Shown here one piece after another: positions 51,388-55,159 of a DNA stretch of 64,000 bases. The stretch covers positions 248,001 to 312,000 of the forward strand of contig NZ_PEDL01000002.1 in the NCBI RefSeq assembly GCF_002735925.1. The letters are read 5' to 3'. The notes below the pieces were generated by a model. That model had not been told where the DNA came from. It ran no database searches and was given only the letters and a program-made list of their open reading frames with translations. Source of the stretch: Sporanaerobium hydrogeniformans (GTDB lineage Bacteria > Bacillota > Clostridia > Lachnospirales > Cellulosilyticaceae). The position numbers and the translations under genes were made by a program. How positions within the stretch are numbered: position 1 is the stretch's first letter; every line of letters begins with the position of its first letter.

Positions 51388-52089
51388 ATGAGACTAACAA
51401 TTGTTTATGGAACAGAGCATAAAGGAGCAACTTATCATATTGCACAAGAAGTAATTAGCAGTTTTAAAGGAGCAGAAATAGAAGAGATTTTTTTACCTCG
51501 AGATTTACCAGAGTATTGCAGTGCTTGTTTACGTTGTTTTTGTGAAGAAAAAGGGAGTTGTTCACATAAACACTATACAGAGCCCTTGCGTGCCAAGCTT
51601 TTAGCAGCAGATATACTTATTTTAACATCACCTGTTTATGCTTATCACATGTCGGGGCAAATGAAGGTTTTTCTCGATCATTTTGCAAATATGTGGATGG
51701 TTCATCGCCCCGAAAAAGCCATGTTTTTAAAGCAAGCTATTGTGATTGCAGCAGCCAGTGGACCTGTTTATGCTAAAACCTTAAATGGGATAAAGGATAG
51801 CTTAGACTTTTGGGGAGTAGCGAAGACCTATAAAATAGGGGTAGCTCTTATGGAGTCTGAATGGCAAAGAGTATCACCTAAAGTGAAGGCAAGGGTGAGT
51901 AGACGTATTCAGAAGGTAATAGCCCAAGTCAAGAAAAGACAGGGAAAAGTTAAACCCTGTTGGAGAGTAAAAAAGTGGTTTTATATCAGCCGCTTCATGC
52001 AAAAGAAAATAAAAGCTAATCCACCAGATGTTTTATACTGGGAAGAGCAAGGTTGGACAGGAAAGGTACGCCCTTGGAAGAACAACTAA
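51388..52089 (+). CDS. Flavodoxin-fold NAD(P)H-dependent oxidoreductase
   Basis: 233 residues. An N-terminal flavodoxin-like fold: TIVYGTEHKGATYHIAQEV binds the FMN phosphate, followed by YCSACLRCFCEEKGSCSH (residues about 47-64), a cysteine-rich segment typical of the iron-sulfur flavoprotein/NADPH-dependent FMN reductase group, and ILTSPVYAYHMSGQMKVFLD. The C-terminal 70 residues are basic (VKARVSRRIQKVIAQVKKRQ). Role in redox metabolism; substrate unknown. GGGGAG precedes the ATG. The neighbouring XRE-desulfoferrodoxin gene also suggests a redox stress setting. Confidence 0.8.
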   Translation: MRLTIVYGTEHKGATYHIAQEVISSFKGAEIEEIFLPRDLPEYCSACLRCFCEEKGSCSHKHYTEPLRAKLLAADILILTSPVYAYHMSGQMKVFLDHFANMWMVHRPEKAMFLKQAIVIAAASGPVYAKTLNGIKDSLDFWGVAKTYKIGVALMESEWQRVSPKVKARVSRRIQKVIAQVKKRQGKVKPCWRVKKWFYISRFMQKKIKANPPDVLYWEEQGWTGKVRPWKNN

Positions 52090-52328: not shown

Positions 52329-52463
52329 AGGGACAATGGTGAGTAAACTGTACTCGCCCTTTCTAACTCAAAAAAGAAGTCAAGTATAGAAAGGTAAAAC
52401 TCTACGGAGCGTGGATTGAAAAATAACACATCAGCTATTAAGATAAAGGAGGAGGTGAGACTA

Positions 52464-53042
52464 ATGGATTGTAGTAAAGTAGGAAAATTATTAACCTATT
52501 TACGCAAAGAAAGGGGTATGACTCAAAAAGAGGTAGCTGACATCCTCTCTTTAAGTGATAAGACCATCTCTAAATGGGAGCGTGGATTAGGGTGTCCAGA
52601 TATTTCACTACTCAACGAACTCTCTACCCTATTTGGTGTAAATATTGAAAAAATCTTAATAGGGGATTTAAATCCTAATGATGCTGATGGAGGAAATATG
52701 AAACGAATTAAATTTTATGTATGCCCAAGTTGCGGTAATGTGATGACTGCAACAGGAGAAGCAGATATCTCCTGTTGTGGGAGGAAATTAGAAGCGCTTA
52801 AAGCCCAAAAGCAAGACAAAAAACATACAATGCTATTAGAAGAGATAGAAGATGATTATTATATCACTTTTTCGCATGAGATGCGCAAAGAACATTTTAT
52901 TTCATTTGTAGCTTATGTGAGATACGATAGAGTTTTACTTGTCAAGTTATATCCAGAACAAAATGCAGAAGTTCGTATACCCCAAATGCGAGGGGGGCAA
53001 TTTTATGCCTATTGTACTTGTGATGGTCTATGGGCTTTTTAG
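52464..53042 (+). CDS. XRE regulator fused to a desulfoferrodoxin/superoxide reductase-like domain
   Basis: 192 residues from ATG 52464 (GGAGGAGG at 52448-52455). Residues 1-65 form an XRE helix-turn-helix (LLTYLRKERGMTQKEVADIL, SLSDKTISKWERGLGCPD). Residues 83-112 are a desulfoferrodoxin N-terminal iron site: Cys87 and Cys90 in FYVCPSCGNV and Cys104-Cys105 in DISCCGRKLE. Residues 118-192 resemble the superoxide reductase catalytic domain: His121 (KKHTML), His138 (SHEM), His144 (KEHF) and Cys184 are kept, but the last ligand His in the C-x-x-H-G-L-W motif is Asp187 (CTCDGLW). It likely senses oxygen, superoxide or iron through its iron centres and controls transcription; enzymatic activity may be lost. 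Its targets are unknown. Confidence 0.85.
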   Translation: MDCSKVGKLLTYLRKERGMTQKEVADILSLSDKTISKWERGLGCPDISLLNELSTLFGVNIEKILIGDLNPNDADGGNMKRIKFYVCPSCGNVMTATGEADISCCGRKLEALKAQKQDKKHTMLLEEIEDDYYITFSHEMRKEHFISFVAYVRYDRVLLVKLYPEQNAEVRIPQMRGGQFYAYCTCDGLWAF

Positions 53043-53893: not shown

Positions 53894-55159
53894 GTGGAGC
53901 AGAAGGTAATTTTTCATATTGATGTCAACTCTGCTTTTTTAAGTTGGGAGGCTGTACACCGATTAAGAGATTTAGGAGAATCTTTAGATTTGAGGGAAAT
54001 CCCTTCGGCTATTGGAGGAGATCAAGAGAAGCGAAGAGGGGTTATATTGGCACGTTCTATTCCAGCAAAAGCCTATAAAGTACAGACTGGAGAACCGATT
54101 ATTCGAGCTCTTTCTAAATGTCCACAGCTTCAACTAACTAAGCCCAATTTTGAAATTTATGTGAAGTATTCCACAGCTTTTATAGCTATTTTAAAAGAGT
54201 ATTCACCTGTAGTAGAGCAGTGTTCCATTGATGAGGCCTTTATGGATATGACAGGAACAGAAGGGCTTTATGGTGATTTAATTGCTTTGGCTCACCGGCT
54301 TAAAGAACGTATTTATAGTGAGCTGGGCTTTACAGTGAATGTGGGGATTTCTTCTAACAAACTCCTAGCTAAAATGGCTAGTGATTTTGAAAAACCCTAT
54401 CGTGTGCACACCTTATTTCCAGAAGAAATAAGCAAAAAGATGTGGCCTATGCCAGTAGGTGAATTATTTTTTGTAGGAAAGGCAGCAGAGGCAACTTTAA
54501 TTAAGTTAGGTATTAAAACCATTGGACAATTGGCAAAAGCTGATGTAAATTTACTTAAGAAGCATCTGCACAAACAAGGAGAAATCATTTATGGTTATGC
54601 TAATGGTAGAGACAGTCGTTTAGTCATAGAAGAGAAGCAGGCTAATAGGGGGTATGGCAATTTGATGACGATTCCTTATGATGTTGATTCGGTAGAAGGA
54701 GCTAAAAGTGTATTGCTTTCTTTATGTGAGACAGTAGGCATAAGATTAAGGCAAGGTGGAGTAAAAGCAGGGTTACTTAGCGTAAGTTTAGTGGATACCT
54801 TTTTTGAGCAGCATTCCAAACAAAAAACATTGACTTCCTCTACGGATGTTACGAAGGAACTGTATATAGAAGCTTTAAATCTTTTTGAAGACTTATGGAA
54901 TCACCGCACACCCATTAGACAACTAGGTGTTCATACAAGCAAACTCTCAGATGGACAGACTTATCAATATAATCTTTTTTCTGGAGAGTGTTATGAGAAG
55001 TATGGTAAGCTAGATAAAGCTTTAGATACCATTCGTCAAAGATATGGGGACAGTGCTGTTATGAGGGCTACCTTTATTGACTCAGCCATTACTCCCATAG
55101 CAGAAAGCCTATCTAAAGAGATGTCACCCTTAAAACTAAAAATGCCTCAGAACCAGTGA
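53894..55159 (+). CDS. dinB: Y-family DNA polymerase (DinB/Pol IV type)
   Basis: A translesion DNA polymerase. The catalytic core begins at VIFHIDVNSAFLSWEA with metal-binding Asp, and continues with the steric and finger segment GVILARSIPAKAYKVQTGEP and the second metal motif EQCSIDEAFMDMTG. Helix-hairpin-helix KLGIKTIGQLAKADVNLLKK and a little-finger domain follow. 421 residues from GTG 53894, preceded by GAGAGGGTGGG. The longer frame (from 53816) overlaps the promoter, so it is not used. The last 28 bases form one arm of a bidirectional terminator. Confidence 0.92.
   Translation: MEQKVIFHIDVNSAFLSWEAVHRLRDLGESLDLREIPSAIGGDQEKRRGVILARSIPAKAYKVQTGEPIIRALSKCPQLQLTKPNFEIYVKYSTAFIAILKEYSPVVEQCSIDEAFMDMTGTEGLYGDLIALAHRLKERIYSELGFTVNVGISSNKLLAKMASDFEKPYRVHTLFPEEISKKMWPMPVGELFFVGKAAEATLIKLGIKTIGQLAKADVNLLKKHLHKQGEIIYGYANGRDSRLVIEEKQANRGYGNLMTIPYDVDSVEGAKSVLLSLCETVGIRLRQGGVKAGLLSVSLVDTFFEQHSKQKTLTSSTDVTKELYIEALNLFEDLWNHRTPIRQLGVHTSKLSDGQTYQYNLFSGECYEKYGKLDKALDTIRQRYGDSAVMRATFIDSAITPIAESLSKEMSPLKLKMPQNQ

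Follow-up and report, generated by a model that had tools for sequence, protein, structure and literature searches.

HTH-Dx-SOR proteins of Clostridia as candidate metal-sensing regulators: a recurrent His/Asp switch at one metal ligand and a conserved promoter site

The closest described enzymes are the 2Fe-SOR/desulfoferrodoxin proteins (TIGR00320; PF06397 with PF01880), for which the published motif is C(xx)C(x)15CC and (E)(K)H(x)19-27H(x)5H(x)40-63C(x)2H (PMC11980386). Proteins in which an N-terminal helix-turn-helix (HTH) stands ahead of a Dx-SOR module were named HTH-Dx-SOR in SORGOdb in 2011, with 19 members (PMC3116461); the fusion class itself is thus already known. The portions of that paper considered here give neither a function nor an operator for the class, and hold no description of a His-to-Asp/Glu change or of a loss of the catalytic Lys. 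In the open-licence literature, we found no reported function for HTH-Dx-SOR proteins, and no paper on XRE plus SOR regulators in clostridia or on the site sequence described below.

Here we analyze such a gene in a window of 64,000 nucleotides from Sporanaerobium hydrogeniformans. Its product has the order described for that class, an N-terminal HTH and then a Dx-SOR module (PMC3116461). We computed the architecture, the ligand conservation, the recurrent His/Asp switch, the conserved site, the promoter geometry and the co-occurrence of site and protein across genomes. The new elements are the ligand survey with its His/Asp/Glu pattern, and the dyad site with a two-promoter set in the organism’s own genome.

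Among regulators, the XRE/lambda-CI-type proteins SinR, P22 c2 and DdrO share the HTH fold and, likely, dimeric binding to a short dyad located at the protein’s own promoter, but in its C-terminal half the window protein has a metal-site SOR fold instead. SoxR and PerR combine metal-based redox sensing with a small detoxification regulon. The resemblance to them would lie in the proposed role only, as they have a different DNA-binding fold (MerR and Fur, respectively) and a different metal site, and the window protein lacks a 2Fe-2S cluster. Membership of the SoxR family was rejected, since the HTH is of the HTH_3/XRE type and the matches included no MerR family. TrtA of Treponema denticola, an oxygen-responsive XRE protein, was set aside as a counterpart because it has 104 aa and no reported similarity to SOR (PMC12724145).

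Gene and domain layout

The features of the locus are collected in Table 1, with the reading frame taken from the window sequence. The ATG at 52464 is likely the start codon; it is favored because the longer alternative, a TTG at 52416, falls on the putative −35 box. Automatic gene calling that takes this longest frame may therefore begin the regulator gene 48 bp too early.

Table 1. Features of the HTH-Dx-SOR locus, in window coordinates
Feature	Position	Strand	Basis or remark
Conserved site ACTCTACGGAGCGTGGATTG	52399..52418	+	Dyad core CTACG-N3-CGTGG 52402-52414; proposed operator of the XRE domain
Putative −35 box TTGAAA, adjoining the dyad	52416..52421	+	Promoter scan; fixed geometry across the family
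Putative −10 box TAAGAT	52439..52444	+	17 bp from the −35 box
RBS GGAGGAGGT	52448..52456	+	7 bp upstream of the start codon; read directly
HTH-Dx-SOR regulator gene	52464..53042	+	192 aa; ORF, Pfam, TIGR00320, PDB 2ji2 alignment, AlphaFold
XRE helix-turn-helix domain, residues 6-70	52479..52673	+	PF01381 51.7 bits; P22 c2/SinR-type fold, residues 1-70
Centre I (Dx-like) C87-x2-C90-x13-C104-C105	52722..52778	+	Family conservation, 205 fusion proteins
Centre II ligands H121, H138, H144, C184 and Asp187 (last SOR His replaced)	52824..53024	+	PDB 2ji2 alignment; survey

The HTH_3 match (PF01381), which spans residues 12-63, lies well over the Pfam cut-off of 23 bits and places the N-terminal part among the XRE proteins. 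Residues 80-190 of the 192 aligned with the superoxide reductase of PDB entry 2ji2 (phmmer, E 2.4e-7), and the protein matched TIGR00320 with an E value of 1.4e-11, although its 44.7 bits are under the cut-off of 146.9; the scores for PF01880 (15.0 bits against 22.2) and PF06397 (15.0 bits against 23) were likewise under their cut-offs. An AlphaFold model computed from 74 sequences reached a mean pLDDT of 93.9. In structure comparison, model residues 78-192 matched the Treponema SOR 1y07 (Z 14.1, 2.1 angstrom over 113 residues) and the D. baarsii SOR (Z 12.7-12.8), and residues 1-70 resembled P22 c2/SinR-type repressors. Foldseek agreed on the SOR fold (model against 2ji2, E 8.5e-10). This layout is not a chance arrangement, because many orthologues have it as well. 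An MqsA-type antitoxin, considered for its combination of zinc ribbon and HTH, was rejected: PF15731 (14.9 against 30 bits) and TIGR03830 (31.1 against 61.8) covered the HTH part only, and the domain order is reversed relative to the window protein.

In the alignment to 2ji2, the C-x-x-H motif of the enzyme (YCNIHGHW) pairs with YCTCDGLW; therefore, Cys184 takes the place of the axial ligand and Asp187 that of the last His. The remaining SOR ligands align with H121, H138 and H144, and the Cys4 site with C87, C90, C104 and C105. As such, two observations of a preliminary description of this DNA were borne out: that one chain joins an XRE domain, a Cys4 site and an SOR fold, and that three His and the Cys of the catalytic site are kept while the last His is replaced by Asp187.

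Metal ligands and the enzyme signature

That description had also proposed a survey of other Clostridia for the fusion and the His-to-Asp change, and both were found repeatedly. Counting as strong the matches with E below 1e-33, we found the fusion in 170 of 745 sampled genomes (103 of 392 from the order, and 67 of 353 from elsewhere in the class), with additional strong matches in records of Spirochaetota, Actinomycetota and Paenibacillus. The HTH is present in nearly all strong matches, and stand-alone SORs score clearly lower. The resulting survey set comprises 205 distinct fusion proteins. At centre I, the first three Cys are invariant, and the fourth is Cys in 178 and His in 27. At centre II, the ligand residue is kept at the position of H121 in 168 of the 205, of H138 in all, of H144 in 193 and of C184 in 194. 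The last ligand is His in 144 proteins, Asp in 48, Lys in 6, Glu in 4 and another residue in 3.

The last position behaves differently depending on the state of the site. When the other four centre-II ligands are intact (n = 167), it is occupied by His (118), Asp (46) or Glu (3) and by nothing else; proteins that lack at least one of the four also show Lys, Thr, Gln and Gly there. A single base change in a His codon can produce Asp, and just as readily Asn, Tyr, Leu, Pro, Arg or Gln, none of which fills the position in the 167 intact proteins. On a tree of 169 fusion proteins and 6 outgroup rows, computed with the trait residue masked, Asp accounts for 16 changes, of which 8 are forced by well-supported branches, and Glu for 3. 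His/Asp switching at the last ligand is thus recurrent, with at least 8 changes on the tree, and near relatives differ at this position (Glu in L124, His in L131). The altered iron ligand of the preliminary description is therefore real as a substitution, and is not peculiar to the window protein.

The simplest account of this pattern would be that the last ligand position is under selection and that a carboxylate is tolerated there. Because only His, Asp and Glu occur when the other ligands are intact, Asp187 can be read as a retained ligand, and we consider it rather probable that it binds metal. Iron is known to accept such a carboxylate ligand in Fe-superoxide dismutase (His3Asp). Separately, we observed that 26 of the 27 proteins with His as the fourth centre I residue also have Asp at the last centre-II ligand, which may mean that changes at the two centres went hand in hand.

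A different view of the module is that it mainly serves dimerization or ligand binding, with zinc at the Cys4 site, a decaying centre II and His/Asp variation as a sign of relaxed constraint, and that the protein senses something else or nothing. The better conservation of Cys4 than of centre II, the loss of several centre-II ligands in some relatives and the tolerance of Cys-to-His at centre I in 27 proteins would fit this. We nevertheless judge it unlikely, as free decay would not confine the last ligand to three residues (His, Asp and Glu) in every one of the 167 proteins whose other four ligands are intact, and the position of H138 is invariant.

Compared with 2Fe-SORs, the window protein shares the fold, the Cys4 centre and four of the five centre-II ligands but carries an added HTH, scores under the curated cut-offs and reads C(xx)C(x)13CC and KKH(x)16H(x)5H(x)39C(x)2D. 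All four Cys of centre I are there at a spacing of x13 rather than x15, and centre II departs from the published motif with KKH instead of EKH, H-x16-H, and CxxD instead of CxxH; overall, the motif is missed at four points. A Lys is present at the catalytic position of the window protein, with the preceding Glu lost, and across the class this position is Lys in 17 of 205 fusion proteins. In contrast, EKH and the last His are kept in all 54 stand-alone Dx-SORs; apparent ligand losses in 12 of these were discarded as alignment shifts, since all 54 hold EKH. The organism’s own genome also encodes a stand-alone Dx-SOR (contig C11, L001), and the cell therefore has an enzyme besides the fusion protein.

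These comparisons bear on the possibility that the fusion protein is still a working superoxide reductase, whose HTH just autoregulates or tethers the enzyme to DNA and whose Asp187 is a tolerated ligand. The preserved SOR fold, the four of five ligands and the Lys of the KKH motif speak for it; yet the Glu-Lys pair is gone in most of the class, the published motif is missed, a separate enzyme is encoded and centre II is wholly lost in some relatives, and we regard this possibility as very unlikely. The earlier suggestion that a detoxifying enzyme was turned into a sensor that acts on DNA is accordingly supported in part: the enzyme fold is joined to an HTH and is probably non-catalytic, and a conserved candidate site adjoins the gene’s own promoter.

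A conserved site at the regulator promoter and across genomes

We compared the 220 bp ahead of 163 diverged fusion genes. The sequence ACTCTACG occurs in 61 of the 163 regions, with 0.2 expected, and CTAC-N5-GTAG in 45, with 0.0 expected; the consensus site is ACTCTACGnnnCGTnkrTTG. When the core matrix is restricted to the first 17 columns, the 99% shuffle threshold is exceeded in 128 of the 163 regions. A −10 box lies at offset 40 from the site start in 69 regions and at offset 39 in 13, and the final TTG of the site is the beginning of the −35 box.

In the window, the dyad center is approximately 43 bp ahead of the point where transcription is expected to start. From the same position, at OR2, lambda CI activates PRM. 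The position fits class II activation and repression alike, and a repressor there would also work. At four CatA-like promoters, poor −35 boxes (TAGTTT, TAGCTT, TGGTTT) favor activation; at other promoters, strong boxes (TTGTCA with TATAAT) favor repression.

In the organism’s own 3.74-Mb genome, the 20-base site has one perfect match, and the site together with a −10 box occurs without mismatch at two places, ahead of the regulator gene and ahead of a CatA-like gene on another contig (G000, C19:20032-20077; L281, L373). The latter pattern of site and −10 box, at C19:20032-20075, lies about 50-70 bp upstream of a gene whose product matches PF00302 (145 bits), carries an SHAVVDG motif and scores 166 bits with the NCBIfam model for chloramphenicol CatA, against a cut-off of 270. 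This gene for a CatA-like O-acetyltransferase is the best candidate target in the genome. Only two other XRE genes of the genome resemble the HTH at E below 1e-6, and neither is among its perfect matches to site plus −10 box. A match to CTCTACGG at 54838 of the window was taken as chance, as it lies inside the Pol IV gene.

Across genomes, the site stands ahead of CatA-like genes in 9 cases, and nearly all sites have a −10 box at the same offset. At 16 of 169 loci, a CatA-like gene also neighbors the regulator on the same strand, in 14 of them within 400 bp. Other genes behind the site include a flavodoxin-like reductase operon (L149), a DUF2087 gene and a Dabb gene, and the targets and neighbors include acetyltransferases, a flavin reductase, and MATE and ABC-type exporters. 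In L015, L059, L168, L207 and L224, a gene for a small protein of GIY-YIG-like appearance, to which no Pfam family matched, follows the operator and often precedes the regulator gene. A neighbor cluster of 10 loci on the opposite strand at distance 0 was discarded, as it consists merely of antisense frames of the regulator gene.

Of the 170 genomes with the fusion, 50 have the site, as do 4 of the 575 without it (Fisher p 2e-30, uncorrected for kinship; this value overstates the case because the genomes are related). Expressed the other way, the fusion is present in 50 of 54 site-bearing genomes (34 of 35 in the order and 16 of 19 in the rest of the class, two groups in agreement) and in 120 of 691 other genomes. 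The four exceptions fall into two kinds. In two genomes that lack HTH-Dx-SOR, the site and a −10 box precede an XRE-GNAT acetyltransferase fusion with a like HTH (L344 of G200, near 1500; L355 of G616, reverse strand, near 616); therefore, the site belongs to the HTH type and not to the SOR domain. The other two (G480 and G536) are matches inside open frames without a −10 box and were taken as chance, as was a match in G332 that also lacks one. Further site matches lie at G126:C1:1142883 and in G202:C19. One operator type thus appears common to regulators with differing C-terminal halves.

Altogether, the site is best read, from these sequence patterns, as the operator of this HTH type. The assignment is by association (conservation and co-occurrence), and on this basis the fusion protein very likely binds the candidate operator. 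That another factor reads the site and controls the regulator and CatA-like genes while the fusion protein acts elsewhere could draw on the sites before XRE-GNAT genes in two fusion-less genomes, but it is very unlikely given that 50 of 54 site-bearing genomes encode the fusion, that two of the exceptions have a like-HTH XRE protein directly behind the site and the other two are in-frame matches without a −10 box, and that the site stands at the fusion gene’s own promoter in 128 of 163 regions, the usual place for autoregulation.

The flavodoxin-like gene at 51388-52089, which the preliminary description had suggested as a possible part of the regulator's circuit, was rejected as a partner in the window. 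It ends about 310 bp upstream of the operator site, no conserved site was found near it in the window, and such a neighbor is near only 5 of 168 other loci; in at least one relative (L149), nevertheless, an operon behind the site joins a flavodoxin-like reductase and the regulator.

Proposed regulation

From these observations, we infer the binding of the site by this HTH, the identity of the metal, the signal and the sign of regulation. We propose, with moderate confidence, that the protein is an autoregulated one-component regulator whose metal sites serve as the sensor and whose outputs resemble detoxification functions. The XRE domain, probably as a dimer, would bind the dyad upstream of its own −35 box and the same site ahead of the CatA-like acetyltransferase gene. 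The Dx-SOR part, with the Glu-Lys pair and loop lengths changed, would no longer be a superoxide reductase and would keep the Cys4 site and the five-ligand His3-Cys-Asp site as metal centres. A change in metal occupancy or redox state, caused by superoxide, oxygen, a redox-cycling compound or iron itself, would then alter DNA binding. Asp187 would be a working iron ligand and would make the midpoint potential lower than that of the His4Cys form; that a carboxylate lowers the redox potential is itself something we infer.

Redox or iron state is a reasonably likely signal. The metals could also have a structural role, as zinc, especially at Cys4. A centre-II sensor cannot be general, since several centre-II ligands are missing from some fusion proteins that still have the site. 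In L193, L201, L203, L207 and L236, the last ligand is Lys, Thr or Gln, mostly with several centre-II ligands lost (for example, EHNSK), and both the Cys4 site and the operator are kept; the signal in these proteins must therefore differ.

A more specific form of the proposal would make the protein a SoxR-like direct sensor of superoxide or redox drugs in anaerobic Firmicutes, working without an iron-sulfur cluster, with a regulon of CatA-like acetyltransferase and reductase genes controlled through one fixed operator and a potential tuned by repeated His-to-Asp changes. It is suggested by the mix of targets and neighbors (acetyltransferases, flavin reductase, and MATE and ABC-type exporters), which resembles the SoxR regulons of non-enteric bacteria, and we offer it tentatively, as a possibility that may well not hold.

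The exact candidate operator, the two-promoter regulon and the recurrent ligand swap make the HTH-Dx-SOR class directly testable. If the metal site is the sensor, the class would represent an SOR-based regulator of anaerobes, and its members would form a natural series for studying what a single carboxylate does to the tuning of a His4Cys iron site.
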